Shown: positions 2,507 through 32,122 of the stretch, one piece after another | How the letters are laid out: the number at the start of each line of letters is the position of its first letter | Position numbering within the stretch: the stretch's first letter is position 1 | Assembly (NCBI GenBank): GCA_013287475.1 | Contig: JABDDT010000032.1 | Location: forward strand, 1 to 33,791 | Reading direction: 5' to 3' | Origin: Bacteroidota bacterium | GTDB lineage: Bacteria; Bacteroidota; Bacteroidia; Chitinophagales; Chitinophagaceae | Length of the DNA: 33,791 nt | The notes under the pieces: model-generated | Seen by the model: only the letters and a program-made list of their open reading frames with translations | What the model was told of the DNA's origin: nothing | Database searches by the model: none | Made by a program: the position numbers and the translations under genes

Positions 2507-2580
2507 AGGAAAGTATGGGAGTATGGGAGTATGGGAGTTCAGTGAAAAATGATTTCACTGCAATACTCCCATACTTTCCT
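2507..2580. repeat. Post-stop hairpin with GTATGGGA tandem repeats (pit 3' end)
   Basis: Three tandem copies of GTATGGGA (2513-2536) form the left part of an inverted repeat. The arms 2507-2547 and 2553-2580 pair through AGGAAAGTATGGGAG with its complement and through an inner 8 bp stem TTCAGTGAAA/TTTCACTG around a 5 nt loop; the left arm carries extra repeat copies that would bulge. Read on the minus strand the element begins inside the TAG stop codon of the phosphate transporter (2581-2579). The same 15-mer occurs again at the stop codon of pdxA. It could act as a transcription terminator or mRNA 3'-end structure, but there is no clear T tract. Confidence 0.75.
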
Positions 2581-3619
2581 AATGTCTGAACAGGGATAAA
2601 ACCATGTAAACGATGGCTGAGAAGATCGCACTGACGGGTATGGTAAGAATCCATGCCCAGAGCAGATTGATGGAAACCCCCCACCTGACCGCCGAGAGTC
2701 TCTTTGTTGCCCCTACGCCCATAATGGAACCTGCAATAGTATGAGTGGTGCTAACGGGTATCCCCAATTTTTCGCTGATAAATAATGTGATGGCACCTGC
2801 TGTTTCCGCACTAACCCCTTCAAGAGGAGTAACTTTTGTGATCCGTGTTCCCATGGTCTTTACAATTTTCCATCCACCGCTTAAAGTTCCCAGCGCTATA
2901 CATGTAAAACTTGCAAGCGGAACCCACATATTTTGATTTACAAATTCTTTGAAGCTCATAGTATGTCCCAACTGGTGCTGATAAAAGATTATCGCGGCGC
3001 CGATAATTCCCATTACTTTCTGCGCATCATTTCCTCCATGTCCCAGGCTAAACAACGCTGAAGAAACAAGCTGCAATTTGCGAAACCATTTATCTGCACG
3101 GTATGGATTTGCATTACGGCAAATGTTTACAATAGTAATCGTGATAATAAATCCAATTATCATCCCGATAAAAGGCGCCAGGAATATAAACAGGAATGTC
3201 GGGACTACTTTTGTATAATTTATCACAGAAATACCATGCCTGCTTAACGATCCGGCATGAGCTATAGCAGCTCCCATAAATCCTCCCAGGAGCGTATGGG
3301 ATGAACTTGAAGGAATACCGAACCACCATGTCAGAAGGTTCCAGGCTATAGCACCTATCAATCCTGAAAAAATTACATCCAGTGTAATAAAATCCTTATT
3401 AACCGAATTGGCAATCGTATTTCCAATTTTGAATTCTCCGATCAGGTATTTAGAAATAAAAAATGCGGCGAAGTTGAACAAAGCGGCCCAGAGAACAGCT
3501 TGGAAAGGAGTGAGAACTTTAGTTGAAACAACGGTTGCAATCGAATTGGCTGCATCATGAAATCCGTTGATAAAATCAAAAATCAGAGCGAGTATAATAA
3601 TGATTACCAGGAAAGTCAT
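2579..3619 (-). CDS. PiT-family inorganic phosphate transporter
   Basis: This 346-residue polytopic inner-membrane protein imports phosphate driven by a cation gradient. Both halves carry the PiT signature: DFINGFHDAANSIATVVSTK near residues 15-34 and SLGHGGNDAQKVMG followed by PVSTTHTIAGSIMG in the second half. About ten hydrophobic segments are visible and the length fits short bacterial PiT proteins without the large cytoplasmic loop. Its upstream neighbour on the same strand, 79 bp away, is a DUF47 protein, the usual partner of PiT transporters. Its stop codon is the first base of the hairpin element at 2507-2580. The specific cation (H+ or Na+) cannot be read from the sequence. Confidence 0.93.
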   Translation of the reverse strand: MTFLVIIIILALIFDFINGFHDAANSIATVVSTKVLTPFQAVLWAALFNFAAFFISKYLIGEFKIGNTIANSVNKDFITLDVIFSGLIGAIAWNLLTWWFGIPSSSSHTLLGGFMGAAIAHAGSLSRHGISVINYTKVVPTFLFIFLAPFIGMIIGFIITITIVNICRNANPYRADKWFRKLQLVSSALFSLGHGGNDAQKVMGIIGAAIIFYQHQLGHTMSFKEFVNQNMWVPLASFTCIALGTLSGGWKIVKTMGTRITKVTPLEGVSAETAGAITLFISEKLGIPVSTTHTIAGSIMGVGATKRLSAVRWGVSINLLWAWILTIPVSAIFSAIVYMVLSLFRH

Positions 3620-3652
3620 TCGAAAAAGGGAATTTATTTATTTATATTCGCA

Positions 3653-3688
3653 ACCACCACACTCCCTCACTACCACACTTCCATACCA
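3653..3688. repeat. Degenerate AAGTGTGG-type repeat (DUF47 3' side)
   Basis: On the minus strand this reads as degenerate copies of a GGAAGTGTGG/GGGAGTGTGG unit, beginning 10 bp after the DUF47 stop codon. It is in opposite orientation to the clean AAGTGTGG array at 4523-4554, so the DUF47 gene is bracketed by related repeats pointing at each other. Confidence 0.5.
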
Positions 3689-3698
3689 GTTTATAGAG

Positions 3699-4346
3699 TT
3701 ATGCATACTTAATAATGATGGTTTCAATCACATTGGCAGCGTCCTCGCATTTATCGGTGACGGTTTCCATAACCTGGTAGATTTCCCTTTTTTTAATTAC
3801 CTCTTTGGCATCTGGCTCCGTTTCAAATAGCCTGTCAATACTCATATCAAAAACATCGTCGGCCTGATTTTCAATACTGTTGATCTTCACCAAAGCGTCC
3901 GTGATCTTTCTCATATCACGCATGTTGCGCAGCTCACTGATGGCCAATCCTACCTGTGTGGTTCCTTCAACGATCAGATCAGCCAGCTTTTGGATTCCGG
4001 TATCGTTGGGATTCACTTTATAAAAATTAATCTTTTTTGCAGTGGAATATATGTAATCACAGATATCATCTAAAGCGCTGGCGAGATAATGGATATCTTC
4101 CCTGTCGAAAGGTGTTATGAAATTTCGACCGAGTTCAGTAAAGACTTTATGAGTGAGGTCGTCATTTACGTGTTCCTGTTCTTCAACCTGGGAAACAAGT
4201 GCGGCCCTTTTATCAATATCCGGTTCACTTACTACTGTTTTTAACAGACGACCCATCCTGGTTACTCCTGCTGCTACTTCTTCAAAAAGCGAGTAGAATA
4301 TCCTGTCTTTCGGCATGAAGATCTTCATGATATTATTCAACGCCAT
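3699..4346 (-). CDS. DUF47 (PhoU-like) phosphate transport accessory protein
   Basis: The 215-residue all-helical protein starts MALNNIMKIFMPKDRIFYSLFEEVA and continues with GRLLKTVV, HVNDDLTHKVFTELGRNFITPFDREDIHYLASALDDICDYIY and VMETVTDKCEDAANVIETIIIKYA. This is the conserved pattern of the DUF47/PhoU_div family, distant relatives of PhoU that pair with PiT transporters and are thought to modulate uptake and bind metal at acidic helix motifs such as DREDIHYLASALDDICD. It directly precedes the PiT gene, so the two are probably cotranscribed. A TAATTTTG -7-like box lies 15 bp upstream on the minus strand, without a convincing -33 element. Confidence 0.92.
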   Translation of the reverse strand: MALNNIMKIFMPKDRIFYSLFEEVAAGVTRMGRLLKTVVSEPDIDKRAALVSQVEEQEHVNDDLTHKVFTELGRNFITPFDREDIHYLASALDDICDYIYSTAKKINFYKVNPNDTGIQKLADLIVEGTTQVGLAISELRNMRDMRKITDALVKINSIENQADDVFDMSIDRLFETEPDAKEVIKKREIYQVMETVTDKCEDAANVIETIIIKYA

Positions 4347-4522
4347 TGTAAAAATTTGGGCAAAATTAGATCTATTAATGACCAGGTCTTCTATTAACGA
4401 TTTGGTAATAATTTGATAACATTGATTGTATATTGTTAATAACCAGTATTATACGATAGGTATAATGAAAGGATTTATGGTCTGGGAACACATCTTCATA
4501 ATTTGGTAAAGACCACATTGGA

Positions 4523-4554
4523 AAGTGTGGAAGTGTGGAAGTGTGGAAGTGTGG
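4523..4554. repeat. Four tandem copies of AAGTGTGG
   Basis: AAGTGTGG occurs four times without interruption (4523-4554), flanked by the imperfect start GGAAAGTG and a trailing TAGAATGG. It lies in the 287 bp gap between the DUF47 and phosphoesterase genes. The rest of that gap (4347-4597) shows no gene; a 69-codon minus-strand frame there reads straight through the repeat and is not credible. Confidence 0.8.
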
Positions 4555-4597
4555 TAGAATGGTAGTTAGACTAAAAAGAATCACTGAACACTTTAGT

Positions 4598-4646
4598 GTT
4601 AAGCGTTAAGCGTTAAGCGTTAAGCGTTGGATGTTAGGCGTTTAGC
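4598..4646. repeat. Heptamer array GTTAAGC supplying the phosphoesterase stop codon
   Basis: Read on the minus strand, seven consecutive heptamers run GCTAAAC, GCCTAAC, ATCCAAC, then GCTTAAC four times. The gene's last codons CTA AAC GCC TAA (Leu-Asn-Ala-stop) lie in the first two units, so the stop codon at 4636-4634 is part of the array. The same unit, in the same sense orientation and again giving Leu-Asn-Ala-stop, occurs at the end of the ABC transporter (17746 onward). Confidence 0.85.
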
Positions 4647-5470
4647 CTTGATAAATGCACAGTAAAATCGTCTGTGACAACATTGAGAGTTTGTTTGGTT
4701 TCTTTTTGGTGTGAAACTGGAAAATCTTTAGCCTGATACTCAAATAAACGCCAGCTTTTATTTTCATATTCCAGGGCTGTCATATGTTCAACCCAGTCAC
4801 CGGAATTCATATAAATGACTTTACCATCGGCATTTTCTATTGTGTGAAGTGCAGGCTGGTGAATATGTCCGCAAATAACATAGTCGTAATTTTTTTTGAT
4901 GGCCAGTGTCGAAGCAATCTGTTCCAGGTCATTCACTTTGGCAACGGCTTTATTAACACCTTCCATGATCTTTTTAGAAATGGAAACTTTTTCTCTTCCG
5001 ACGAATCCAAGTAGAGCATTTACCATCCTATTAAACAAGATGAGTAAGCCATATCCGTTACTTCCTAGTTTGGCCATCATTCTTGCACTCCCCTGTGTGG
5101 TATTATCAAACACATCGCCGTGAAAAATCCACGTCATCTTTTGATCTATCTCCAATACCATTTTGTCTACAAGGGTAAATTGACCGATATGGAGATCAGT
5201 ATATTTCCGCATCATCTCATCATGATTACCTGTAATATAAACTACCCGTGATCCATTGGTAATAAACTGCATCAGCTCCCGGATAACCTGCATATGAGAA
5301 GAAGGAAAAAATCGTTTACTGAATTGCCAGCCATCGATAATGTCTCCATTTAAAATCAGCAAATCCGGTTGTATGCTGCGAAGGTAGTTGAGCAATTCTT
5401 TTGCCCTGCATCCGTATGTGCCCAGATGAATATCCGACAATACAACAACATCTAAATGACGTCTTTCCAT
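4634..5470 (-). CDS. Metallophosphoesterase, LpxH-like (UDP-2,3-diacylglucosamine diphosphatase family)
   Basis: The 278-residue protein has all five Calcineurin-like metallophosphoesterase motifs: SDIHLG at 12-17, NGDIID at 41-46, GNHDE at 81-85, FHGD at 116-119 and GHIHQP at 201-206, which together build a two-metal site. Overall order and the MARKLG-like middle helices resemble COG2908, the LpxH family that hydrolyses UDP-2,3-diacylglucosamine to lipid X in lipid A synthesis; Bacteroidota also carry paralogues of unclear substrate. It stands alone on the minus strand with 260 bp upstream. The C-terminal residues LNA and the stop are encoded by a heptamer array. The position beside phosphate genes leaves a role in phosphate-ester turnover open. 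Confidence 0.85.
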   Translation of the reverse strand: MERRHLDVVVLSDIHLGTYGCRAKELLNYLRSIQPDLLILNGDIIDGWQFSKRFFPSSHMQVIRELMQFITNGSRVVYITGNHDEMMRKYTDLHIGQFTLVDKMVLEIDQKMTWIFHGDVFDNTTQGSARMMAKLGSNGYGLLILFNRMVNALLGFVGREKVSISKKIMEGVNKAVAKVNDLEQIASTLAIKKNYDYVICGHIHQPALHTIENADGKVIYMNSGDWVEHMTALEYENKSWRLFEYQAKDFPVSHQKETKQTLNVVTDDFTVHLSRLNA

Positions 5471-9152: not shown

Positions 9153-11726
9153 ATGGACACAAGGAGGGAATTTATAAAAAAAGCAACATTATTATCTGGT
9201 TTGACCGGCATGAATGCTCTTATACCTGCCGCCATACAGAAAGCACTTTCAATTGATCCAAGTCCGGGCAGCACATGGATGGATGCAGAGCATATCGTTA
9301 TTTTAATGCAGGAAAACCGGTCCTTTGATCACTGTTTTGGTACGTTGAAAGGTGTCAGGGGGTTTAATGATCCCCGTTTTATTCAGCTACCAAATGGGAA
9401 TCCGGTCTGGTTACAATCAAATGAAAAAGGCCAGACTTTTGCACCTTTCCATCTGAATATAAAGGATACAAAAGCAACCTGGATGAGCTCACTTCCTCAT
9501 TCATGGAAAAATCAGGTAAACGCACGCAATGATGGAAAATATGATCAATGGTTAAATGAAAAAAGAAACAGCATTAAAGAATATGCGGATATGCCCCTGA
9601 CAATGGGATATTATAACAGGGAGGACATTCCGTTTTATTATGCATTAGCAGACGGATTTACAGTTTGTGATCAGCATTTCTGTTCATCACTTACGGGTAC
9701 CAATCCAAACAGACTTTTTTTCTGGACGGGTACCGTTCGCGCCGAGCAAAATGAAAATTCCATGGCACATGTTTGGAACGATGATATGGATTACGAGACA
9801 CTTCATTGGAAGACATTTCCCGAGATTCTGGATGACAATGATATTTCCTGGAAGTTTTATCAGAATGAAGTGAGCATTGATGTCGGATTCAAGGATGAAG
9901 AAGATCCCTGGTTATCTAATTTTCAGGACAACCCGCTTGAATTCTTTTCGCAATATAATATTCGGCTTCATGGTAAGCATCTTATTCAGGTAAGAAATCT
10001 GATTAATTCATTACCAGCTGAAATCGATTCATTGCAAAAAAAATTAGATAACCTGCAGCCTTCTGATCCTTCAAAAATAGAAGTGCAGAAAGAATTGAAT
10101 AAAAAGAAAAAATCTCTTGAAGGGGCAATCAAAGAAATAAAGGATAATAGTCAGGAAAAATTTGATTCCCTTTCTTTAAAGGATAAAAGCCTTCACCAGA
10201 AAGCATTTGTTACGAATGTAAATGATCCGGATTATCATTCACTTGAAGAAATTACATATGAGGATAACGGTTCCGGACGTAATTTAAAATTGCCTAAGGG
10301 TGATCTTTTTCATCAGTTCAGGGATGATGTAAAAACGGGGAAGCTGCCGACCGTTTCATGGATTGCAGCACCTGAAAATTTATCTGATCATCCGTCATCC
10401 GCCTGGTTTGGAGCATGGTATATTTCAGAACTCATGGACATACTTACACAAAATCCTGATGTTTGGAAGAAGACGATTTTTATCCTTACCTACGATGAAA
10501 ATGATGGTTACTTTGATCACTTTCCACCATTTGTTGCGCCGCATTCTGGAAGAAGTGAAACCGGTAAAACTTCTGAAGGTATTGATACGCGGGTCGAATT
10601 CGTTACTCTCCAACAGGAAAAAGAAAGAAAAAGATTTCCTGAACCATACAGTCGTGAAAGCTCAATCGGACTAGGTTACCGTGTACCTCTGATTGTAGCA
10701 TCTCCATGGAGTCGTGGAGGATTTGTCAACTCAGAAGTGTTTGATCATACTTCTTCTTTACAATTTCTGGAAATATTTCTCAGTCAAAAAACCGGAAAGC
10801 CCATTCAGTCTTCCCTTATCAGTGAATGGCGACGAACCGTATGCGGAAATTTGACTTCTGTATTCAAAACATCAGATCCGGACCAGGCAGCAAATCTGGA
10901 ATTTGTAAAAAAAGATCCCTTTATGGAATCTGTTTATAATGCAAAATTTAAAAAACTGCCTTCAGGATATAAAGCATTAACTCCGGATGAAATTAGTGAG
11001 TTCCGCAAAGATCCATTTGCATCACACTTTATGCCGAAACAGGAACCTGGTATCAAACCATCCAATGGTTTATTGTATCAGTTATATGCCGAAGGGAAAT
11101 TGAATGAAACGAAAAATGCATTTGATATCAGATTTGAAGCAAGCGGAAAAGTATTTGGTAAAAAAGCTCTCGGATCACCATTCAATGTATACGCACCCGG
11201 AAAATATATTCATTTGGAAAACGGATCGCATGTTTTAAAAGAACTTCGTACCTGGGCATTTGCAGTGAAATCCTCGGATCATATTGAAGCCTCATGGCCA
11301 CTGCAGGAGTTCGAAAATAATCTGTATCACTTAAGAGTTTACGGGCCAAATGGATTTTATCGTGAATTCAAAGGGTCTGTTCTTGATCCGCAGGTTGAAA
11401 TATTTTGTGAATATCAAACCGGGACGATTAATAAAATGAAGCTTACGGGTAATATTCAAATCATCATGCATAATCCAACAAGTGCACCTTTCAGGGTACT
11501 AATTACAGATAATGTTTATAAAAGTACGCCGTTAAAAAAAATTCTGCATCCTGCCGATAGAAATATTGATAATGTCATAGTACCGATAGATCTTTCGAAG
11601 AATTTCGGATGGTATGATTTTACAATAAAAATAATCGGGAACAATCTTTTTGAAAAGAGATACGCAGGCAGGGTGGAAACAGGCGAGCAGGGATACAGTG
11701 ATCCTTATATGGGAAGGACAATTTAA
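9153..11726 (+). CDS. Tat-exported phosphocholine-specific phospholipase C
   Basis: The 857-residue protein opens with a twin-arginine signal (RREFIKKATLLSG, residues 4-16) and then the phosphoesterase motif HIVILMQENRSFDHCFGT (E54-N55), followed by GMNALIP-type mature start, NRLFFWTGT and TYDENDGYFDH. These define the non-haemolytic/haemolytic PlcN/PlcH family (TIGR03396), which releases phosphocholine or similar head groups from phospholipids in the periplasm or outside. Two C-terminal DUF756 beta domains (about 650-740 and 750-850) are present. Residues roughly 275-345 form a charged, coiled-coil-like insertion. The stop overlaps the stop of the convergent histidine kinase by 4 bp. In other bacteria such enzymes are phosphate-starvation induced. 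Confidence 0.93.
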   Translation: MDTRREFIKKATLLSGLTGMNALIPAAIQKALSIDPSPGSTWMDAEHIVILMQENRSFDHCFGTLKGVRGFNDPRFIQLPNGNPVWLQSNEKGQTFAPFHLNIKDTKATWMSSLPHSWKNQVNARNDGKYDQWLNEKRNSIKEYADMPLTMGYYNREDIPFYYALADGFTVCDQHFCSSLTGTNPNRLFFWTGTVRAEQNENSMAHVWNDDMDYETLHWKTFPEILDDNDISWKFYQNEVSIDVGFKDEEDPWLSNFQDNPLEFFSQYNIRLHGKHLIQVRNLINSLPAEIDSLQKKLDNLQPSDPSKIEVQKELNKKKKSLEGAIKEIKDNSQEKFDSLSLKDKSLHQKAFVTNVNDPDYHSLEEITYEDNGSGRNLKLPKGDLFHQFRDDVKTGKLPTVSWIAAPENLSDHPSSAWFGAWYISELMDILTQNPDVWKKTIFILTYDENDGYFDHFPPFVAPHSGRSETGKTSEGIDTRVEFVTLQQEKERKRFPEPYSRESSIGLGYRVPLIVASPWSRGGFVNSEVFDHTSSLQFLEIFLSQKTGKPIQSSLISEWRRTVCGNLTSVFKTSDPDQAANLEFVKKDPFMESVYNAKFKKLPSGYKALTPDEISEFRKDPFASHFMPKQEPGIKPSNGLLYQLYAEGKLNETKNAFDIRFEASGKVFGKKALGSPFNVYAPGKYIHLENGSHVLKELRTWAFAVKSSDHIEASWPLQEFENNLYHLRVYGPNGFYREFKGSVLDPQVEIFCEYQTGTINKMKLTGNIQIIMHNPTSAPFRVLITDNVYKSTPLKKILHPADRNIDNVIVPIDLSKNFGWYDFTIKIIGNNLFEKRYAGRVETGEQGYSDPYMGRTI

Positions 11727-13477: not shown

Positions 13478-13588
13478 ACCGAAAACTATCGTAGGGATGG
13501 GGAAATGACCTGAGTTTACAATTTTTTAATACTGGATATTGAGCTGAAGGCTTAAAGCCGAAGTCATAAAACCCGGTTTATGGTGTAT

Positions 13589-13638
13589 GGTCGATGGTTT
13601 ATGGTCGTCTAAATACCGTCGACCATAAACCATCAACC
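13589..13638. repeat. 19-bp inverted repeat upstream of the clan CD-like gene
   Basis: Arms 13589-13607 and 13620-13638 pair at 18 of 19 positions around a 12 nt loop; the left arm is preceded by two more partial copies of the TTTATGGT/GTATGGTC unit (from 13575). The element sits in the divergent 238 bp gap and ends 3 bp before the -33 box of the promoter at 13642-13671. It could be an operator for that promoter or another member of the intergenic hairpin group. Confidence 0.7.
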
Positions 13639-13641
13639 GTC

Positions 13642-13697: not shown

Positions 13698-15917
13698 ATG
13701 AAGATAATTATCCGTTTTCTCCTAGTACCGATTTCTCTGCTGCTGACCCTGCCCTTATTTGCGCAAACAGCTAATCCTTCTTTTAAAATTCAACAGGAGC
13801 ATAAATTGTGGCACGACAATATTGACAAGGAGCAATTGAGACTTCTGGCCCTCGATGGAAAGGCTGATGATATCATTCAGGCTTCAAAGGACGAAAATGT
13901 TAATCTCGAAATCGCTGATGTGATGATCCGTCAGGTTGACCTTCTACAGGAAAAGATTGAAACGGATTCCGCTCTCAGCGGACAAATGAAGATTAAAAAT
14001 CTGCGTTCCCTGGAATCAATGATTAAAGGATACAACAACCATTTCAGAAAAAAGGATTTCCCGCCTTCCATGGCACCTGTACTTTTTGATGCTTTTGTAA
14101 AAGCGATGGAATATGACCGGCTGAACATGAGTATCACTCCCGTGATTGCCGAAAATAGTTATGGAGTGGGTAATATCCTGGTAGAGTGTTTTTTACTGCC
14201 GGTCGAAAACCCCGGAGTAAAAGAATCACGCGTACTGCTCATAAGAAAATACTGCGAATTGCACCCAAATGAGATTTTCCCGATTCTCAGTTCAAATCCT
14301 GATCTGCCGTTTACTGACAGCCTGATCATAACCGGGGGCAGAAAAAATATTCGCAAGCTGTATGATTATGCTTCCGGGAATACAGTGCTTTCTTCCAGAA
14401 TACGTAATAGCAACGATTCCCTGATCAGCATGGTAGGAAGAATTGCATCCAGTAAAAGCGGGCAGCTTTATCTTCCATTCCTTGACAATCTTATCAACCA
14501 CCGAATTACCATTGCAGATATCAATAAGGTAAAAGATAATAATCTCGAATATTACAAGCTTCTGGTAAAAACGAGAATGGACTACGCGGCCCGCATGCTT
14601 CCGCCGTTTCAGGATACCGCTTTGGAAATGGAAGCACTGACAACAATGCTCCAAAGCAAGGGTAAAGACGTTTTTGTTCGTGAGATCAATGCCCTGCACG
14701 ATAAACCTGCGTCGGTCAGGTTTAAAATCCTGGATCCTCTGACACCTGCTGAACTATATTATCTCATTGTATTAAGTGAGGATGAAATATATACCTCCAG
14801 TTATCTCGGTGTTTACGAACGAATTTTTCAACGTATGTCTGTGCCGCGCGGAGATAGTCTTATCATCCAAATGCATGGCGATTATTTCAGGAAATTCATA
14901 AAGATGGCTGCTGCATATAATAAACTGGATTATTTCCTGGCCACAATGGATAAGGATAATGCAGCAACCATAATGAAGGCCTTTATTATTGGCCTTGAAA
15001 GAGCCAATGAAGAAGATGCAGTAGATGTAGCAGATTCCTATAGCAGCATATTCGATAAAAATCCACCGCTGGCAGCATTTGTTTTGAATGAAGTAAAGTG
15101 GAATTATAAAAGAAACCTTATCAACAGCGATAAGCGCGGAACAGTGATCTACCACCTGATGGAGGCCCTCTTTGAATCTGCCGATACAACTCAGGCAGTT
15201 GACCTGTCTGCCAAGCTTGGAATACCTCCGGTATATACAGTTAGTTATGATTCTTTGAAAGACGATAGTGGCCGGGTTATTCAACAGGTTTTTTTCTATG
15301 GAGATGAGGACAAAGACGGACAAAATTCATATCAGGATTTTCTAAAATTATTTTTGGGAAAACCCGAATGGAAAGTAACCCTGAATCCTACAAAAGAATG
15401 GATATGGATTCAATCGATAAAAGGGAAACCTGTCTGGATCTTTGCCAATCGTCCACTTTTCGGAGAGGATGATCCGGATGATAAAGCACAGCACCACCTG
15501 GATGATTATCTCTATGACAACAAACTCGAACCCACCATTTATATTCATCGTGGGCATAGTTACCATGTGCGATATACTCTGAAACAACTTCAACCTTCAG
15601 CAAAGATTGTTATCCTGGGTTCCTGTGGCGGTTATAATAACTTAAGTGAAGTGCTCAGTATTAGTCCTGATGCTCATATCATTTCTTCTAAACAGGTCGG
15701 AACGAAATCAGTGAATGAACCGATCCTTCAGGCAATCAACAGCGACCTGCTGGATGGAAATAATATCGATTGGCTGCCAATATGGAAGACACTGACGGAG
15801 AAATTTAAAAAAGACCCTGTTGCGCGCGAAAGATTTGACGACTATATTCCTCCTTATAAAAACCTGGGCGTTATTTTTATAAAAGCTTATCGCAACGCGA
15901 TGGGGGAAGAGGATTAA
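13698..15917 (+). CDS. Secreted protein with possible caspase-fold (clan CD) C-terminal domain
   Basis: The 739-residue protein has a signal peptide (hydrophobic 5-20, ending LFAQ), a long helical middle section (about 30-480) without a family I recognise, a calcium-like loop GDEDKDGQNSYQDF near 535-550, and a C-terminal alpha/beta domain. In that domain TIYIHRGHSYHV (H617 and H620) is followed by KIVILGSCGG with C643, and then by IISSKQVGTKSVNEPILQAI. Strand-His-Gly and strand-x-x-Cys order is the catalytic layout of clan CD peptidases (caspase, CHAT, gingipain), and the last segment resembles the helix after the CHAT Cys. His-to-Cys spacing is short, so activity is unproven. It has its own promoter and precedes the ABC exporter by 32 bp. 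Confidence 0.7.
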   Translation: MKIIIRFLLVPISLLLTLPLFAQTANPSFKIQQEHKLWHDNIDKEQLRLLALDGKADDIIQASKDENVNLEIADVMIRQVDLLQEKIETDSALSGQMKIKNLRSLESMIKGYNNHFRKKDFPPSMAPVLFDAFVKAMEYDRLNMSITPVIAENSYGVGNILVECFLLPVENPGVKESRVLLIRKYCELHPNEIFPILSSNPDLPFTDSLIITGGRKNIRKLYDYASGNTVLSSRIRNSNDSLISMVGRIASSKSGQLYLPFLDNLINHRITIADINKVKDNNLEYYKLLVKTRMDYAARMLPPFQDTALEMEALTTMLQSKGKDVFVREINALHDKPASVRFKILDPLTPAELYYLIVLSEDEIYTSSYLGVYERIFQRMSVPRGDSLIIQMHGDYFRKFIKMAAAYNKLDYFLATMDKDNAATIMKAFIIGLERANEEDAVDVADSYSSIFDKNPPLAAFVLNEVKWNYKRNLINSDKRGTVIYHLMEALFESADTTQAVDLSAKLGIPPVYTVSYDSLKDDSGRVIQQVFFYGDEDKDGQNSYQDFLKLFLGKPEWKVTLNPTKEWIWIQSIKGKPVWIFANRPLFGEDDPDDKAQHHLDDYLYDNKLEPTIYIHRGHSYHVRYTLKQLQPSAKIVILGSCGGYNNLSEVLSISPDAHIISSKQVGTKSVNEPILQAINSDLLDGNNIDWLPIWKTLTEKFKKDPVARERFDDYIPPYKNLGVIFIKAYRNAMGEED

Positions 15918-15949
15918 TTTTAACTTTTTAATTTTTACTTTTTACTTCA
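15915..15949. repeat. Degenerate ACTTTTTA-type repeat after a stop codon
   Basis: From the TAA stop of the secreted protein (15915-15917) to the ABC transporter start, the spacer is made of degenerate T-rich units of about 8 bp (TTTTAACT, TTTTAATT, TTTACTTT). It is low complexity and could simply be a T-rich leader; it is listed because it fits the pattern of repeats starting at stop codons. Confidence 0.35.
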
Positions 15950-17758: not shown

Positions 17759-17958
17759 CGCTTAACGCTTAACGCTTAACGCTTAACGCTTAACGCTTAA
17801 CGCTTAACGCTTAACGCTTAACGCTTAACGCTTAACGCTTAACGCACATTTAGCTTCGCAAATTAAAGCGGATTTATTTATTTCATGCACTTCTTTTCCA
17901 TCTTAAATTATTACCGGATGAACTGAAAGCATTACGCGTTAAGCGTTGCGCGTTCAGC
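17746..17958. repeat. 14-copy GCTTAAC heptamer array with distal inverted copies
   Basis: GCTTAAC repeats 14 times without error from 17746 to 17843. The first two units overlap the end of the ABC transporter gene and provide its TAA stop (17756-17758). After about 95 bp without a gene, three inverted degenerate units GTTAAGC, GTTGCGC and GTTCAGC follow (17938-17958), so a large imperfect hairpin can form. The array ends before the atpB promoter at 17970. Because 7 is not a multiple of 3 and TTAA is self-complementary, the array puts TAA in all reading frames of both strands. Confidence 0.95.
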
Positions 17959-17969
17959 GTAAAAAGCTC

Positions 17970-19565: not shown

Positions 19566-20060
19566 ATGAAATTACTTCTCCCCGAATTTGGATTATTGAT
19601 TTGGACGCTGCTTGCTTTTCTCATTGTTCTTTTTATTCTTGGCAAATTTGCATGGCCAGCGATTATTAAAGGATTAAAAGAAAGAGAAGCAAGTATAACG
19701 GACTCTCTTGCAACAGCAGAACGTGTTAAAGCAGAAATGGCACAATTGAAAAGTGAGAATGAAGCACTTCTTGCAAAAGCACGGGAAGAAAGAGCCCAGA
19801 TGCTGAGAGAAGCACGCGATACAAAAGATAAAATTATTAATGAGGCTAAGGAACAGGCAAAAATTGTATCTGAAAAGATCCTTGCAGATGCACAGGAAGC
19901 TATAGAACGTAATAAAATGGCGGCGCTTATAGAGGTTAAAAATGAAATCGGTTTACTTGTCGTTGGCATTTCTGAAAAGATTCTTCGCCGCGAACTTCAA
20001 AACAGACCAGAGCAGGAAAAATATATAAAACAGTTGGCCGAAGAAGTGAAACTCAATTAA
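19566..20060 (+). CDS. atpF: ATP synthase F0 subunit b
   Basis: The 164-residue peripheral stalk subunit has one N-terminal transmembrane helix (about 6-27, LLIWTLLAFLIVLFILGKFA) followed by a long charged coiled coil (EREASITDSLATAERVKAEM to the C-terminus) that dimerises and binds the delta subunit. Length and order between atpE and atpH are normal for the family. The stop codon at 20058-20060 is immediately followed by an imperfect palindrome filling the gap to atpH. Confidence 0.95.
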   Translation: MKLLLPEFGLLIWTLLAFLIVLFILGKFAWPAIIKGLKEREASITDSLATAERVKAEMAQLKSENEALLAKAREERAQMLREARDTKDKIINEAKEQAKIVSEKILADAQEAIERNKMAALIEVKNEIGLLVVGISEKILRRELQNRPEQEKYIKQLAEEVKLN

Positions 20061-20742: not shown

Positions 20743-22321
20743 ATGGCAGAAATAAAACCGGACGAAATATCAGGGATCATACTTCAACAACTCAGTGTTT
20801 TTAATTTAAATACAGAAATGGAGGAAGTGGGAACAGTTCTCCAGGTTGGTGACGGTATAGCACGCGTATACGGATTGAATAACGTAGGTAGCGGAGAATT
20901 GGTAGAATTCGAAAATGGAGTTCGCGCAATCGCTTTGAATCTGGAAGAAGATAATGTGGGTATTGTGCTAATGGGTGATTCCGGAGAGATAAAGGAAGGC
21001 GCTAAAGTGCGTCGCACCGGTAAAATAGCTTCTATTAAAGTCTACGAAAGTATGTTAGGAAGAGTAGTGAATACACTGGGCGAAACTATTGATGGGAAGG
21101 GGCCTTTAACCGGGGAAAGTTTTGAAATGCCCATTGAGCGCAAAGCACCTGGAGTTATTTTTCGTGAACCGGTAAAAGAACCTTTGCAAACCGGGATTAA
21201 AGCGATTGATGCGATGATCCCGATTGGAAGAGGACAAAGGGAACTGATCATTGGAGATCGTCAGACTGGGAAAACAGCCATTGCAATAGATACTATTATC
21301 AACCAGAAAGAATTTTATAAAGCCGGTAAGCCTGTTTATTGTATATATGTTGCTATTGGCCAGAAAGCCTCAACTGTTGCAGGAATCATGCAAACATTGA
21401 ACGAGAACGGAGCTATGCCATATACAATCATAGTAGCTGCCTCAGCTTCAGATCCGGCTCCTTTGCAGTTCTATGCACCCTTTGCTGGTGCCGCTATCGG
21501 TGAATATTTCAGGGATACAGGCCGCCCTGCTCTGATTATTTTTGATGATCTGTCTAAACAAGCCGTAGCCTACCGTGAAGTTTCCCTTCTGCTTCGGCGC
21601 CCCCCCCGGTCGTGAAGCTTATCCGGGCGACGTTTTTTACCTGCATAGCCGTTTACTCGAACGAGCAGCAAAAATCATCCAGGATGATGGGGTTGCTAAA
21701 AATATGAATGACCTGCCTGAATCTCTAAAAAGCAGGGTAAAAGGTGGCGGTTCTCTTACAGCCCTACCCATTATTGAAACCCAGGCTGGTGATGTATCCG
21801 CATATATTCCTACCAATGTGATATCCATTACCGATGGACAGATTTTCCTCGAGGGGAACCTGTTTAATTCGGGTATTCGACCTGCAATTAATGTAGGTAT
21901 ATCCGTGAGCAGAGTAGGAGGTAATGCCCAAATTAAATCCATGAAAAAAGTGGCTGGTACTTTAAAACTGGACCAGGCGCTTTATAGAGAAATGGAAGCC
22001 TTTTCCAAATTCGGCGGGGATCTTGATGCTACCACCAAACTCGTGCTGGACAAGGGTGCCCGAAATGTGGAAATCCTTAAACAGCCTCAATATGCGCCGG
22101 TTTTAGTAGAAAAACAGGTGGCAATCATTTATCTCGGAACGCAAGGACTGCTCCGGGAGGTTAGGGTAAATCAGGTTAAAGCTTTTGAGGAGCATTTCCT
22201 AATGGAAATGGATAATAAATTACCCGAAGTATTGGCCGAATTCAAGAAGGGAATTATTTCGGATGAATCGATCCGAAAAACGGTACAACTGGCCAATGAA
22301 TTAATTCCGCAATACAAATAG
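20743..22321 (+). CDS. atpA: ATP synthase F1 subunit alpha, frameshifted at a C8 run
   Basis: Two overlapping frames together encode a normal alpha subunit of 525 residues. The first frame (20743-21615) holds the N-terminal barrel and the nucleotide site GDRQTGKT (171-178) and ends shortly after SLLLRRPP. The second frame (within 21575-22321) resumes with [20 protein letters not shown] through to the C-terminal helices ELIPQYK. The junction is a run of eight C at 21600-21607; seven C would restore [12 protein letters not shown], the universally conserved sequence. The extra base is a sequencing or assembly error, or a real or slippage-corrected frameshift. An intact gene is expected because the enzyme is essential in most hosts. 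No atpG follows. Confidence 0.93.
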
Positions 22322-22413
22322 TAATTATTGATTATTAATTATTGATTTCAATGTCTTGCTCAATGGAAGCTCTGTAAAGTCGTATCCAATCAATATTTAA
22401 TAATCAATAATTA
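22322..22413. repeat. 26-bp inverted repeat directly after the atpA stop
   Basis: Arms 22322-22347 and 22388-22413 match at 25 of 26 positions around a 40 nt loop. The left arm begins with the base after the TAG stop of atpA and is built from ATTATTGATT-like direct repeats. It has no T tract. It is rich in TAA and TGA. Confidence 0.85.
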
Positions 22414-22621
22414 ATAATTATTTCCAAACACTTGCATTATTGGAAAACGCTTGCAATCTTTGTCTTGCAGTTAAGCCGTACCAATCTCCAGATTAACTTC
22501 CTTCCAATTTTCCTGATTACAGAATTAGATCATTTCAAATAGGGGTTTCCAATCCTTCAGAAGAATTATGCCTTGTTCCAATCACTATGGGTTATCAGAA
22601 TAATCCTGATTAAAACAAGTT
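22414..22621. other. Non-coding gap upstream of a secreted protein gene
   Basis: No gene is visible. The normal place of atpG is empty. A near-consensus promoter may be present: TTG at 22433-22435 then AATCTTTG at about 22456-22463, one mismatch in the -7 box, which would leave a leader of about 150 nt before ATG 22622. I see no riboswitch-like conserved fold. Confidence 0.35.
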
Positions 22622-25908: not shown

Positions 25909-26535
25909 ATGAAATACATTCTCTTAACTTTTATGATGCTGGGGTCTCTTGTTACAAATGCCCAAAGTGAAAAATATGAAGCTGCCATGAAAAAAACCCT
26001 GTCCTTTTTTGATTCCGCCAAATCAACAGCTCAATTTCAAAGCGTGGCCAATTCATTCGAACGCATTGGAGATGCCGAAAAAACCCAGTGGCTTCCATAC
26101 TACTATGCAGGACTTGCACTAAGTATCCCGGCCTGGGCCGATCCAAATATTGACAAAGACGCAAACAGCATTCGCATTAATACCCTTTGCGATAAGGCAG
26201 AGGCACTTGATACAAACTCCGAGATTTATGTGCTTAGAAATATGTCTGCTACACAGCAGATGATGGTGGATCCCCAAACCCGCTGGCAAACCTACGGTAC
26301 ACAGGCCTCCAAAGATTTGCAGATAGCAATTAAACTGAATCCGGATAATCCGAGAATTTATTATTTGCAGGGACAAAGTTTATTTAATACTCCTCCTGCA
26401 TTTGGCGGAGGCAAAGACAAAGCAAAACCATTATTTGAAAAAGCGATTGTCCTTTTTAAGACTGACAAACCAAAACCTTTCTGGCCAAACTGGGGATTAG
26501 AGTCAACCGAAGAACAACTGGCCAAATGTCAATAA
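25909..26535 (+). CDS. Secreted TPR-like protein
   Basis: The 208-residue protein has a signal peptide (1-18, ending TNAQ) and helical repeats with TPR-like spacing, for example WLPYYYAGLALSIPA, LCDKAEALDTNSEIYVLRNM and LQIAIKLNPDNPRIYYLQGQSLFNTP, followed by a glycine-rich FGGGKDKAKPLFEKAI. Such proteins scaffold protein contacts in the periplasm. It lies between the TonB-dependent receptor and the winged-helix gene, and probably works with the receptor. No enzymatic motif is visible. Confidence 0.85.
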   Translation: MKYILLTFMMLGSLVTNAQSEKYEAAMKKTLSFFDSAKSTAQFQSVANSFERIGDAEKTQWLPYYYAGLALSIPAWADPNIDKDANSIRINTLCDKAEALDTNSEIYVLRNMSATQQMMVDPQTRWQTYGTQASKDLQIAIKLNPDNPRIYYLQGQSLFNTPPAFGGGKDKAKPLFEKAIVLFKTDKPKPFWPNWGLESTEEQLAKCQ

Positions 26536-26549
26536 TAAATAAAAACGAA

Positions 26550-26852
26550 ATGAATCAATTCAGGGACCTTGATCCCGTACTGCATTCGCAATTACGTCTT
26601 GCAATCATTTCTTTACTCATGAGGGAAAAAGAATCTGATTTTTCTATCCTTAAAGACAGAACAAAAGCTACCGCAGGCAACCTTAGTGTACAAATTAATA
26701 AACTGCGAGAAGCGGGATATATTGATGTTGTCAAGGATTTTAAAGACAATTATCCGCATACAATTTGTAAGATCACGGTATCCGGTTCAAAAGCTTTCGA
26801 ACAATATGTAAAAAGCCTGCAATCCTATGTAAGCTTAAAGCCTAAAGCTTAA
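26550..26852 (+). CDS. Winged-helix transcriptional regulator
   Basis: From ATG 26550 the protein has 100 residues: LHSQLRLAIISLLMREKESDFSILKDRTKATAGNLSVQINKLREAG is a winged helix of the HTH_34/ArsR-MarR-like type, followed by a wing (HTICKITVSGSKAFEQYV). An earlier ATG at 26526 overlaps the previous stop codon; I prefer 26550 because of the A-rich sequence before it and the family's usual N-terminus. No metal or redox Cys is seen. It probably regulates the receptor module. The end SLKPKA-stop is encoded by a heptamer array. Confidence 0.88.
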   Translation: MNQFRDLDPVLHSQLRLAIISLLMREKESDFSILKDRTKATAGNLSVQINKLREAGYIDVVKDFKDNYPHTICKITVSGSKAFEQYVKSLQSYVSLKPKA

Positions 26853-26866
26853 AGCTCAAAGCTGAA
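26832..26866. repeat. Heptamer array AGCTTAA containing a stop codon
   Basis: Five consecutive heptamers AGCTTAA, AGCCTAA, AGCTTAA, AGCTCAA, AGCTGAA. The stop codon TAA of the winged-helix gene (26850-26852) is the end of the third unit. The unit differs from the GCTTAAC arrays by one base per period. The following 26867-26976 has no gene; it is pyrimidine-rich with loose CACATT/TTCCAT-like repeats. Confidence 0.75.
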
Positions 26867-26976
26867 ACCTTCATTGTACGAAAATTCTGAAGTATTTTAT
26901 TGACGATTATCACATTATCATTTTCTCATTCAACTTCCATATTCCCTCATCCATAATATTTCCACATTCACCACAT

Positions 26977-27974: not shown

Positions 27975-28087
27975 AAAAAGTATAAGAGTATATGAATATA
28001 AGAGTATAGGAGTTTGAAAATCACATATTTTAACTCCTATACTCTTATACTCTTATACTCTTATACTCTCTTCTCCCATACTTTCCT
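27975..28087. repeat. Post-stop hairpin with AGTATAAGA repeats (pdxA 3' end)
   Basis: Arms 27979-28014 and 28032-28067 pair at 34 of 36 positions around a 17 nt loop and consist of tandem AGTATAAGA 9-mers. On the minus strand the element starts at the pdxA stop with AGGAAAGTATGGGAG, a 15-mer identical to the one at the stop of the phosphate transporter 25 kb away. Confidence 0.85.
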
Positions 28088-29175
28088 CAGTTTTCCTCAA
28101 TCCTCTCATCTTCAGCACCAGCCAGAACAACAGATCCCATTTTCTTTAGGGGATTTTTATGATTTTCATTGAATTCCTTTCTTTTTTCAACAATATCCAG
28201 ACATCCGTAAAGAGCGGCCAGGAAGGAGGCGTTATCTGCTTTATTCTTACCGGCTATATCAAAGGCTGTCCCATGGTCGGGAGAAGTTCGGATGGCAGGC
28301 AATCCTGCGGTATAATTGAAGCCTTCCCCTGAAGAAAGAGATTTAAATGGAATCAGACCCTGATCGTGATACATGGCTAATACGGCGTCGAATTTCTGTT
28401 GTTGATTCCTTGCAAAAAATGCATCTGCACTATACGGCCCGAAGACCAGCATATTGTGCTTGGCATCTTTAATGGCGGGTTTAATAATGTCCTCTTCTTC
28501 ACGGCCAATCAGTCCTTCATCACCGGCGTGAGGATTGAGTCCGAGAACGGCAATCCGTGGCTTATCGATACCAAAATCACGTATAAGTGAATCTTTGAGA
28601 ATATTCAGTTTAGATATGATTGCATCCCGTGTAATAAATTTAACAATTTCACTTACAGGTACATGTTCAGTAACGAGCCCCACCCGAAAGTTCTCAGAAC
28701 TCATAAGCATAAGAACATCTTTCATCCCAAAAAAATGTTTTAAATAAGGCGTATGGCCAGTGAAAGAAAATGAATCGGACTGAATATTTTTTTTATGAAT
28801 GGGAGCCGTGACCAGTCCGTCAATTTTTTTATCCTTCAGGGCTTCCGAGGCCGCAATCAGGGATTTAATTGCATAAGTTCCGCCTGTATCTGTAAGTTGT
28901 CCGGGGCTTATCGCCACCTCTTCTTCCCAGCAATTAAAGAGATTAACCTGCTTATGAAAGGGCCGGGAAAGGTCTTTTATATGCTGGTAATTAAACGTTG
29001 AATCAGGTATCGATTTACGATAGAAATTTATCAGTTTATTAGATGCAAATAATATAGGGGTGCAGATTTCCAGAAGCCTGCTATCAGAAAATGTTTTAAT
29101 AGCCAGTTCTGTTCCTATCCCATTCAGATCGCCAATGGAAATGCCGATAACTGGTTTTTGTTGTGAGGTGCTCAT
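28087..29175 (-). CDS. pdxA: 4-hydroxythreonine-4-phosphate dehydrogenase
   Basis: The 362-residue enzyme oxidises 4-phosphohydroxy-L-threonine for pyridoxal 5'-phosphate synthesis by the DXP-dependent route. The N-terminus IGISIGDLNGIGTELAIKTF, LVTAPIHKKNIQS, GHTPYLKHFF, GLNPHAGDEGLIGREE and MYHDQGLIPFKSL with metal-binding His residues are all present, as is RTSPDHGTAFDIAGK. Length is slightly above the family norm because of a charged C-terminal tail. It is divergent from rsmA with 62 bp between starts, the same neighbourhood as pdxA-rsmA in many bacteria. Its stop codon is the first part of a long repeat hairpin. Confidence 0.96.
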   Translation of the reverse strand: MSTSQQKPVIGISIGDLNGIGTELAIKTFSDSRLLEICTPILFASNKLINFYRKSIPDSTFNYQHIKDLSRPFHKQVNLFNCWEEEVAISPGQLTDTGGTYAIKSLIAASEALKDKKIDGLVTAPIHKKNIQSDSFSFTGHTPYLKHFFGMKDVLMLMSSENFRVGLVTEHVPVSEIVKFITRDAIISKLNILKDSLIRDFGIDKPRIAVLGLNPHAGDEGLIGREEEDIIKPAIKDAKHNMLVFGPYSADAFFARNQQQKFDAVLAMYHDQGLIPFKSLSSGEGFNYTAGLPAIRTSPDHGTAFDIAGKNKADNASFLAALYGCLDIVEKRKEFNENHKNPLKKMGSVVLAGAEDERIEEN

Positions 29176-31069: not shown

Positions 31070-31077
31070 TATCTTTG
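31070..31077 (+). promoter_or_regulatory. -7 element of the greA promoter
   Basis: TATCTTTG matches the Bacteroidota -7 consensus exactly. The nearest TTG (31055-31057) is only 12 bp upstream, shorter than usual. A start near 31083 would place the hairpin at 31086 at the very 5' end of the transcript. Confidence 0.5.
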
Positions 31078-31085
31078 CACAAATG

Positions 31086-31121: not shown

Positions 31122-31130
31122 AAATAAACA

Positions 31131-31139
31131 AGAGGAGGA
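31131..31139 (+). promoter_or_regulatory. Strong Shine-Dalgarno of greA
   Basis: AGAGGAGGA with core AGGAGG (31133-31138) lies 4 nt before ATG 31143. None of the other genes in the window that I checked shows such a match, in keeping with the usual Bacteroidota lack of Shine-Dalgarno use. Confidence 0.75.
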
Positions 31140-31142
31140 TTT

Positions 31143-31616
31143 ATGAGTGGAATCACATATCTGACAAAGGAGGCACTCGAGAAACTGAGAGGTGAGCTGC
31201 AAAAGATGAAAAGTATCGACCGGCCGGCAGCTTCAAGGGCCATCGCTGAAGCACGGGAAAAAGGAGATCTGAAGGAAAACGCTGAATATGATGCAGCAAA
31301 AGAATCTCAGGGTTTGCTTGAGGCAAAGATTCAGCGCCTGGAAGCAGACCTGGCCAACGTGCGCATACTGGAAGAAGGCAATATTGATACGAGCAAGGTG
31401 TCGATTCTTACCAAAGTAACAGTTACCAATCTTTCAAATAAAAAACAATCAACCTATCATCTGGTTTCGGAAAAGGAAGCCGATCTCAAACTCGGTAAAA
31501 TCTCTGTCTCTTCTCCTATAGGAAAAGGACTGCTTGGAAAACAGGTTGGTGAAGTGGCGGATGTAATAGTACCAGCCGGGAAACTTCAATTTAAAGTTGA
31601 AAGTATAACAGTTTAA
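31143..31616 (+). CDS. greA: Transcription elongation factor GreA
   Basis: The 157-residue factor rescues backtracked RNA polymerase by stimulating transcript cleavage. The N-terminal coiled coil spans about 8-75 with the acidic tip GDLKENAEYDAAKESQ; D42 and E45 correspond to the catalytic acids of E. coli GreA. The C-terminal FKBP-like domain contains YHLVSEKEADLKLGKISVSSPIGKGLLGKQVGE. Size and motifs are standard. The gene has a distinctive leader with a terminator-like hairpin and a strong ribosome-binding site. Confidence 0.97.
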   Translation: MSGITYLTKEALEKLRGELQKMKSIDRPAASRAIAEAREKGDLKENAEYDAAKESQGLLEAKIQRLEADLANVRILEEGNIDTSKVSILTKVTVTNLSNKKQSTYHLVSEKEADLKLGKISVSSPIGKGLLGKQVGEVADVIVPAGKLQFKVESITV

Positions 31617-31621
31617 TATTT

Positions 31622-32017
31622 TCAGATTCCCAAATTTGAAATTATTTTTTCCTGTACATTCCTGAATTCCGCATCGCTTAACTTCAGTTTTGGATTTTTA
31701 AAATTCATATCATTCAAATGGTCGATGGGAATCAAATGCATGTGTGCGTGAGGAACTTCTAATCCTACAACAGATATCCCGCATCTGTTACAGGGGAAAG
31801 ATTTTTCAATTGATTTTGCGACAGGTTTCGCAAACAGCAGAATCCGCGAAAGATAAATTTCATCCAGATCAAAAAAAAGATCGGTCTCGGTTTTAGGTAT
31901 CACCAGGGTATGGCCTCTGCGCAATGGATTGATATCCAGAAATGCCAGAAACAAATCATCTTCTGTGATCCGGTAAGCGGGGATCTCCCCCTTTATAATT
32001 TTCGTAAAAATTGTCAT
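31622..32017 (-). CDS. HIT family protein (histidine triad hydrolase)
   Basis: The 131-residue protein begins TIFTKIIKGEIPAYRITEDD and contains the triad HAHMHLIPI (H90, H92, H94), in which H92 is the expected nucleophile. Family members hydrolyse nucleoside phosphoramidates or dinucleoside polyphosphates; the physiological substrate here is not clear. A Cys pair, CNRCG at 76-80, is present. It converges on greA with 5 bp between stops, and its start lies 14 bp from the large hairpin that follows ruvC. Confidence 0.93.
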   Translation of the reverse strand: MTIFTKIIKGEIPAYRITEDDLFLAFLDINPLRRGHTLVIPKTETDLFFDLDEIYLSRILLFAKPVAKSIEKSFPCNRCGISVVGLEVPHAHMHLIPIDHLNDMNFKNPKLKLSDAEFRNVQEKIISNLGI

Positions 32018-32030
32018 ATGCTTATATTAA

Positions 32031-32122
32031 GTGTGAGAGTGTGAGAATGTGAGAGTGTGAGAGTAAGTGAATAATAATATAAAAGTTTTTTCTCACACTC
32101 TCACATTCTCACACTCTCACAC
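32031..32122. repeat. Perfect 32-bp inverted repeat of GTGTGAGA units after ruvC
   Basis: Arms 32031-32062 and 32091-32122 are exact reverse complements, separated by a 28 nt AT-rich loop. Each arm is four copies of an 8 bp unit (GTGTGAGA, once GAATGTGA). On the minus strand the repeat continues into the ruvC stop codon: TGA at 32127-32125 is in phase with the TGAGAGTG units. It also lies 14 bp upstream of the HIT start codon. Confidence 0.95.

Follow-up and report, generated by a model that had tools for sequence, protein, structure and literature searches.

Tandem 7- and 8-nucleotide words, often paired into hairpins, lie directly behind stop codons in a Chitinophagaceae genome

In a stretch of 33,791 nucleotides from a Bacteroidota bacterium of the family Chitinophagaceae (GenBank assembly GCA_013287475.1, contig JABDDT010000032.1; referred to here as the window), the gaps behind many genes carry short tandem repeats and long inverted repeats. 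We analyzed these elements in the window, in a larger sample of its genome (G000), and in related genomes. Arrays with a period of 7 or 8 nucleotides (nt) mostly begin at stop codons throughout the genome; they draw on a small set of words with fixed strand polarity, are often paired with an inverted arm that mirrors their unit variants, and change in site and word between species, and in some relatives the arms flank a dispersed palindromic core. The observation is real, genome-wide, and far beyond chance. The elements are likely to be fast-changing and spreading rather than fixed switches of single genes.

Period-7 and period-8 arrays start at stop codons

G000 (3.16 Mb in 137 contigs, 74% complete) contains the window as its contig C32. 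Forty stretches of 20 kb from contigs C1 to C20 were combined with the window to give a sample of 833,791 bases. Gene borders (696 genes) came from our own open reading frame (ORF) and hexamer caller, not from curated annotation; in the window, this caller returned the listed ORFs or genes near them. Tandem Repeats Finder (TRF; score of ≥40, periods up to 12) detected 190 arrays, of which 114 had period 7 and 56 had period 8 (170 together); the others had a period of 4 (1 array), 9 (1), 10 (2), 11 (4), or 12 (12). A scan of gaps of ≥40 nt alone gave 141 period-7/8 arrays, none of period ≤6, and 4 of period 9 to 12, while Markov-shuffled gaps gave no period-7/8 array and 4 arrays in all.

Gaps held 153 of the 170 arrays, the other 17 lying in coding sequence or at edges. 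Array density per kilobase was 2.18 in codirectional gaps (104 arrays) and 2.04 in convergent gaps (35 arrays) but 0.49 in divergent gaps (14 arrays); at least one array was present in 70/362, 20/104, and 10/122 of these gaps, respectively. The array block started ≤10 nt from the stop codon in 47 of the 70 codirectional gaps, compared with 29.0 on average and at most 41 over 2,000 runs in which each block was slid uniformly inside its own gap. The start codon side showed no attraction (13 observed versus 15.7 under the null), and in codirectional gaps of >400 nt, the block still began ≤10 nt from the stop in 5 of 6 cases.

Inverted repeats (ungapped, score of ≥14, within ~220 nt of the stop, gaps of ≥60 nt, each convergent gap counted as two ends) were found at 54/314 gene ends and at 0/314 shuffled ends. 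About a quarter of the examined ends with room carry element words at or just behind the stop: a near-stop array was present at 77/314, and an inverted repeat accompanied it at 43 of these 77 ends, compared with 11 of the 237 other ends. The stop-side end of codirectional inverted repeats lay ≤10 nt from the stop at 20/27 sites in G000 (null mean of 10.1, maximum of 17). Samples of the relatives G005 (440 kb; genome 58% complete) and G008 (398 kb; 99% complete) gave 15/20 (8.7, maximum of 14) and 10/12 (3.4, maximum of 10) in the same test. In convergent gaps, both outer ends of the inverted repeat lay ≤10 nt from both stops for 20/27 ends in G000, 16/26 in G005, and 12/16 in G008. The shared position and build claimed in the original prediction, which had been made from the window alone, were thus confirmed against both the sliding null and shuffled gaps.

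The words form a small lexicon with fixed polarity

The repeat unit had been thought to differ at nearly every site and to be unrelated between sites. Instead, the genome uses a small set of words. The octamers form one family (AGTRTRR-), with 54 of 56 arrays ≤1 mismatch from a short unit list and with the AGTATGGG, AGTGTGAG, and AGTATAAG types making up 43 of the 56. Of the 114 heptamer arrays, 76 use one of ten units; exact unit counts are given for heptamers because a post hoc grouping into six families was loose, with an estimated more than one-third of random heptamers fitting it.

Polarity was counted for octamers, while heptamer units near and far from stops were listed only. Among codirectional gaps with a sense-strand AGTRTRR- octamer, 20/23 place it ≤20 nt from the stop, and the octamer complement lies ≥27 nt downstream of the stop in all 19 codirectional gaps that have it. 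Base composition is skewed: C is scarce in near-stop arrays (13%, versus 28% G; n = 82) and G is scarce in distal arrays (12%, versus 27% C; n = 52). Word families were not clustered along G000 contigs (24/83 neighbors alike versus 23.3 expected; P = 0.47) or in G005 (15/55 versus 11.1 expected; P = 0.11), and local spreading of words along the chromosome was rejected on these grounds.

Stop codons in all three frames were found on the sense strand in 61 of 82 near-stop arrays and on the antisense strand in 32, with 49.8 expected from shuffled units (P = 0.012). This is suggestive as a reason for periods 7 and 8, but we did not adopt it because the commonest octamer unit, AGTATGGG, has no such stops. 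A TAG stop was somewhat commoner at element ends than at other ends in G005 (18/68 versus 19/123); no such excess was seen in G000 (15/88 versus 35/226) or G008 (3/31 versus 24/94).

Paired arms mirror each other's variants

The window was scanned with TRF at a score of ≥30 and for inverted repeats of ≥14 nt, with the following results (strand given after the coordinates).

2507 to 2580, minus: octamer-arm hairpin (AGTATGGG) whose loop holds another hairpin, immediately behind the stop of a phosphate-transporter-like gene (2579 to 3619, minus); TRF and inverted repeat; RNA fold of -36 kcal/mol, z = -9.9
3656 to 3683, minus: degenerate array of AGTGTGGT-type octamers behind the gene at 3699 to 4346 (minus); TRF, 75% matches; inverted partner not found
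4523 to 4554, minus: octamer array (CCACACTT on the coding strand) that makes up the stop-distal portion of a mixed element, the proximal portion being written in another word; TRF; fold of the mixed element, z = -2.3
4598 to 4628, minus: proximal heptamer array (GCTTAAC, coding strand) after the stop of a phosphoesterase-like gene (4634 to 5470, minus); TRF
13574 to 13639, no strand assigned: inverted repeat of heptamer words (GGTTTAT/GGTCGAT) that breaks the stop codon rule by lying between divergent genes; TRF and inverted repeat; fold z = -7.8
15914 to 15947, plus: degenerate array of TTACTTT units that overlaps the stop of a gene (13698 to 15917, plus); TRF
17746 to 17845, plus: 14.3 perfect GCTTAAC copies, with the stop codon of the ABC exporter gene (15950 to 17758) inside the array; TRF
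17927 to 17963, plus: inverted arm (GTTAAGC type) of the array at 17746 to 17845; TRF and inverted repeat
22316 to 22419, plus: heptamer-word hairpin (ATTATTG/AATCAAT) beginning at the atpA stop; TRF and inverted repeat; fold z = -6.5
26831 to 26871, plus: AAAGCYT heptamer array, a single arm with no hairpin, crossing the stop of the winged-helix gene at 26526 to 26852 (plus); TRF; fold z = -0.1
27976 to 28069, minus: octamer-arm hairpin (AGTATAAG) after the pdxA stop (28087 to 29175, minus); TRF and inverted repeat; fold of -53.5 kcal/mol, z = -12.0
32030 to 32123, minus: octamer-arm hairpin (AGTGTGAG) starting at the ruvC stop (32125 to 32634, minus); TRF and inverted repeat; fold of -63.1 kcal/mol, z = -13.5

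Nine gene ends had been named as carrying repeats, with units of 7, 8, or 9 bp. Repeats were recovered at eight of them (the phosphate transporter, phosphoesterase, 15917-ending, ABC exporter, atpA, winged-helix, pdxA, and ruvC genes, some under the names of the original prediction), and the case of the secreted-protein gene ending at 15917 was indeed degenerate. The atpF end (stop at 20060) had neither a TRF array nor an inverted repeat at the window thresholds, and the periods at the named ends were 7 or 8, none being 9. Rfam gave 0 matches above the gathering score in the window. Five of the seven stretches chosen for RNA folding fell far below shuffled sequences (z of -6.5 to -13.5), the mixed element and the single-arm array being the other two.

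The ruvC hairpin is a clean example of mirroring: its 33-nt arms are 100% complementary, and one deviant unit is matched in the partner arm. Across G000 arms with unit variants, identity was 0.94 in register versus 0.84 when slid by one unit, and the in-register value was higher at 45/49 ends, with convergent gaps again counted twice; variants of one arm recur in mirrored order in the other. The arms therefore look actively maintained, as the proposal of a process that maintains the repeats had implied. By the ungapped test, 34 of the 77 near-stop-array ends lack an inverted partner. At about 12 mixed loci judged by eye, one word lies at the stop and the complement of another lies downstream, each with its own polarity, as in the 4598 to 4628 array with that at 4523 to 4554.

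Related genomes share the build but exchange sites and words

A search for the octamer pattern in 58 genomes found it in two, G000 and G005; G000 gave 109 and 106 matches versus 16 and 16 for a reversed control, which itself gave matches only in G000. The build recurs with other words. Period-7/8 arrays numbered 97 in the 440 kb of G005, 32 in the 398 kb of G008, and 18 in 100 kb of G015. Array-poor samples were also found (none, with one inverted repeat, in 100 kb of G003; one in 80 kb of G010), and 9 of the 28 samples classed as "same genus" (4 to 100 kb each) contained such an array. The 80 best pdxA matches in named genomes (1.42 Mb around pdxA; Chitinophagaceae bacteria, Puia, Niastella, Terrimonas, and kin are among them) yielded 43 period-7 and 24 period-8 arrays, in 27/80 loci, along with 0 of period 6, 2 of period 9, 6 of period 10, 12 of period 11, and 15 of period 12. 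These 67 arrays lay in codirectional (28), convergent (21), and divergent (6) gaps or in coding sequence or at edges (12). GTTGACN arrays were found in 9 of 295 genomes of the class, G000 included, although the reversed control also gave matches in several genomes; in one of the nine, G349, five sites were arrays without an inverted partner word.

The isolate record of Pinibacter aurantiacus MAH-26 holds 16 arrays in 21 kb, making an assembly artifact, the alternative raised at the outset, unlikely (G058 is a Pinibacter genome). By eye, a word hairpin runs from the stop in 7 of 11 listed stop codon gaps of this isolate and words occur in 3 of 4 divergent gaps; some elements enclose, or are followed by, a canonical terminator. 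In G008, contigs C68 and C78 (L113 and L114) have their first bases inside octamer arrays (GAATTTGA and ATTCTCAA), which suggests that arrays break assemblies and are undercounted.

Element sites and words turn over between species at ~80% protein identity. We compared gene ends between reciprocal best orthologs (median identity of 81% for G005 and 79% for G003). Of 57 comparable ends in G000 and G005, elements were present at 18 and 11, respectively, and at 4 in both, where ~3.5 were expected by chance. The corresponding values for G008 were 9 and 14 of 59 ends, with 5 shared and ~2.1 expected. Ten of 37 ends had an element in G000 only when compared with G003, as did 1 of 3 compared with G010; for G015, 16 ends gave 3 versus 6 and none shared. 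Where the site is shared, the word need not be. The ruvC end has AGTGTGAG in G000, AGTATGAG in G005, an AAATGTG word in G008, and no element in G016 and G003; the ABC exporter end has GCTTAAC in G000 and GGTTGAC in G008, and the word at the pdxA end likewise varies with the species. At C9:29649, a convergent gap contains AGTGTGAG in G000 and TATGGAAG in G005 but measures 1 nt in G003. Three convergent gaps that hold elements in G000, at lengths of 73, 87, and 233 nt, have lengths of 1, 17, and 32 nt, respectively, in G003.

Dispersed palindromic cores lie between the arms in relatives

In G008, the linkers between arms have a palindromic core in common. The sequence GTGCGAATTCGCAC matched 49 sites at ≤2 mismatches, versus 2 for the reversed control; at 1 mismatch it matched 19 sites in G008, 11 in G006, and 7 in G019, with 0 for the control and 0 or 1 in each of the other 55 genomes. 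We read 35 of the 49 sites and dropped three inside genes. The remaining 32 gave the consensus GACTTTAAGTGCGAATTCGCACCTGAAGTC, and by eye all were flanked by word arms (GGTTGAC, GGATGAC, GGTTGAT, GGTATAT, GGTGGAT, etc.). All 32 left arms differ. The two arms of one copy nevertheless matched at 0.768, compared with 0.664 between copies and a maximum of 0.720 in 2,000 permutations; 21 of the copies were also aligned. The higher within-copy match in G008 and the higher in-register identity in G000 indicate that the arms are copies of each other. The 28 core sites with genes on both sides were convergent (15), codirectional (10), or divergent (3).

A second core family, around AAAGGAAATGA, was found in G005, with 7 of 9 matches in gaps. 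Its sites include c6 898 and 10890, c7 6683, 19182, and 23681, and c8 17488 (script coordinates); several copies have ends like TAGTGTGGTGAATG and CACCACACTA, and in some gaps the TAG of the end is the stop codon. Linker pairs sharing ≥11 nt exceeded those in shuffled sequence in G000 (17 versus 2), G005 (7 versus 0), and G008 (3 versus 0), a small excess that possibly reflects leftover words. In Nostoc, Elhai and colleagues are said to have described small dispersed repeats within heptamer arrays in 2008, as short cores amid tandem heptamers.

Comparison with known repeat systems

Rehm et al. (2015; PMC4692102) describe GGGAATC and GGGGA(C/T)T heptamers dispersed in tandem in Xanthomonas and Nostoc, with the G-rich strand as the sense strand ≤50 bp from or overlapping a stop codon, and the opposite strand upstream of the next ORF. 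According to the same paper, these repeats are underrepresented between divergent genes, form 70 and 75 convergent (inverted) pairs in two Xanthomonas genomes, vary in length and sequence between species, and mostly lie between the same genes in two species. The G000 arrays have in common with them dispersed tandem 7-nt units, placement, polarity, scarcity in divergent gaps, and inverted pairs (PMC4692102). They differ in drawing on several word families, in including octamers, in mostly lacking GGG, in the mirrored variants of their long arms, in palindromes that span from stop to stop, in sites that are hardly shared between species, and in having relatives with a dispersed core. The Xanthomonas and Nostoc heptamers have previously been discussed as quadruplexes. 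We rejected quadruplex formation as a property common to the elements: the unit lacks GGG in 148 of 170 arrays and has it, on either strand, in 22. The same placement and polarity with words mostly lacking G-runs suggest a common cause other than the quadruplex.

TAACTGA heptamers are reported from Beggiatoaceae, Cyanobacteria, and some Bacteroidetes and, in the main genome of that study, are mostly found immediately ahead of start codons (MacGregor 2015; PMC4679880). They too are intergenic heptamer arrays, known also from five Bacteroidetes, and some are long and stand beside other heptamers; unlike them, the G000 arrays lie behind stop codons and often in hairpins. Repetitive extragenic palindromic (REP) sequences and REP doublets forming hairpins (REPINs) are likewise palindromes dispersed outside genes, where they follow ORFs and lie in codirectional as well as convergent gaps (PMC3733652). 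In contrast to these, no constant REP unit was found in the G000 sample, where arms consist of tandem words and vary between copies. Paired elements, but only these (54/314 gene ends), also resemble miniature inverted-repeat transposable elements (MITEs) in having terminal inverted repeats. Among open-licence papers, we found no description of such arrays in Chitinophagaceae.

Possible origin of the elements

We favor the reading that inverted-repeat elements of the REP or MITE kind, with arms of 7- and 8-nt words, spread behind genes, where slippage and template switching went on to rewrite them, and we judge its chances to be about even. Dispersal is favored because nearly all octamer arrays belong to one family, word families are unclustered, and the GTGCGAATTCGCAC core occurs at many sites in G008, G006, and G019. 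Under this scheme, copies would insert, as opposed to every array arising where it stands. Template switching, which PMC8794818 presents as a maker and keeper of hairpins, would preserve complementarity between the arms, and slippage would determine copy number. The stop codon would act as a border, with arms growing only until coding sequence is met and promoter-side space being closed to them. As a by-product, RNA copied from a paired element is predicted to fold into a highly stable hairpin at its 3′ end, which may halt RNA polymerase or obstruct exonucleases.

Several observations weigh against this reading. Stop adjacency is weaker in the pdxA loci, where 7 of 28 codirectional arrays (distal arms included) lie ≤10 nt from a stop. 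In G015, the codirectional stop preference is within the null (5/14; mean of 3.2, maximum of 8), and stop-to-stop convergent inverted repeats account for 2 of 6 ends, unlike the majority in G000, G005, and G008. No empty site with near-identical flanks was found, the alignments being too diverged to show insertion or a target-site duplication, and no shared core was found in the G000 sample gaps. No candidate enzyme was found: G000, G005, and G008 had no match to the Y1 transposase or reverse transcriptase domains, with other transposases not searched. Finally, a selected role is possible: elements are flush with stops and frequent between convergent genes, and canonical terminators are slightly rarer at ends that carry an element.

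These last features would be expected if the elements were selected 3′-end hairpins, serving as bidirectional terminators or mRNA 3′ stabilizers, so that any strong hairpin would do, words would drift, and the place would be kept. The excess of inverted repeats at gene ends, the low density of arrays in divergent gaps, and the strong predicted folds in the window fit this idea. Canonical terminators were somewhat rarer at element ends (18/207) than at other ends (68/471; P = 0.045) in the pool of G000, G005, G008, and G015, which leaves out G003 and G010 (one element each) and in which no single genome was significant; canonical terminators also occur within or beside elements. The elements themselves did not register as intrinsic terminators (hairpin plus T tract), and most hairpins lack a normal T tract, as the original prediction had said. 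A T-rich tail followed 8/49 inverted repeats in G000 (16%, versus 9% of random gap positions) and 6/37 in G005, slightly above the background of 8 to 9%, but such tails are a minority, with 1/25 in G008 and 0/13 in G015. Together these data lend weak support to a possible terminator role. Selection of this kind nevertheless sits poorly with the many near-stop arrays that lack a partner, two of which in the window fold barely or not at all more stably than shuffled sequence; with the lack of conservation of element-bearing ends; and with the G003 sample, which is almost free of elements. We consider it rather unlikely as the main explanation. The original prediction had offered a choice between a process that generates repeats de novo at stop codons and selection that favors hairpins. 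Each is only partly right, given the unpaired arrays, some of them in gaps with different words at the two ends, and given that element-bearing ends are not conserved between G000 and its nearest relative found, G005.

Polymerase slippage is a published idea for heptamers, and heptamers are reported to outnumber other long simple repeats in most of the bacterial genomes that were surveyed (Mrazek 2007, as cited in PMC4679880). On this account, heptamer and octamer microsatellites would arise de novo in unconstrained 3′ space, snap-back copying would add the second arm, and nothing would spread. The single-arm arrays, the lack of a strong core among G000 gaps, and the fast turnover agree with it. 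However, purely local slippage predicts unrelated units, yet the words recur genome-wide with fixed polarity and relatives contain a dispersed core family, and we regard it as improbable.

Y1_Tnp matches were found in 13 of 20 genomes searched, including array-rich G015 (3), G026 (5), and the Pinibacter genome G058 (6), and were common in array-poor relatives as well. There was none in G000, G003, G005, G006, G008, G016, or G019; apart from G003 and G016, these are array-rich. RVT_1 had no match in G000, G005, G006, G008, G015, G016, G019, or G058 and one in array-rich G026. Because of genome completeness, the absences are limited in G000 and G005 and less so in G008. An origin from REP-associated tyrosine transposases (RAYTs) or a telomerase-like reverse transcriptase was rejected on these results. 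RAYT-driven REPs or REPINs, which would share the palindromic, intergenic placement behind genes and between convergent genes (PMC3733652), are very improbable given the 99% complete G008, which by itself already disfavors them, and the lack of a constant short palindrome in the G000 sample. SbcD had no match in eight array-rich genomes (G000, G005, G006, G008, G015, G019, G026, and G058) and matches in 9 of the other 12; since only 1 of the 9 was above the family cutoff, this pattern is uninformative about SbcCD loss as a permissive condition.

Returning to elements that spread and are rewritten in place, we tentatively suggest, with more doubt than confidence, that they may represent a class of self-rewriting gene-end palindromes. 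These would run from stop to stop and use a species-specific lexicon of 7- and 8-nt words. Template switching would keep their arms identical, lexicon, core, and host genes would be swapped faster than proteins diverge, and the machinery spreading the words would be neither a RAYT nor a reverse transcriptase. With their mirrored arms, these elements are well suited to studying whether template switching creates and maintains long hairpins. Their turnover is rapid, so close strains could reveal the steps of change.

Other observations

A small dispersed palindrome, approximately CTAAGGGTTTACCCTTAG, was seen in AT-rich gaps at six sites of the G000 sample (C8:17926, C8:27386, C10:14633, C12:11243, C13:22093, and C19:39178, within stretches L016, L036, L018, L020, L041, and L047). 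Stretch L041 also has four spaced copies around TTTAATCCGTTTCCCTAGAATTACTAAAAAC within 4 kb (C13:22157, 24674, 25475, and 26082). Contig C20 of G015 (L104 to L108) carries, alongside word-type elements, long gene-end palindromes of the CTGAACC-GGATTTTA-GATTA type that are hardly tandem. In the window, atpA is broken into two overlapping ORFs (20743 to 21615 and 21575 to 22321) close to a stretch of C residues, which probably reflects a frameshift introduced by sequencing or assembly, and positions 9153 to 11726 encode a phosphocholine-specific phospholipase C family protein (TIGR03396, above the cutoff).

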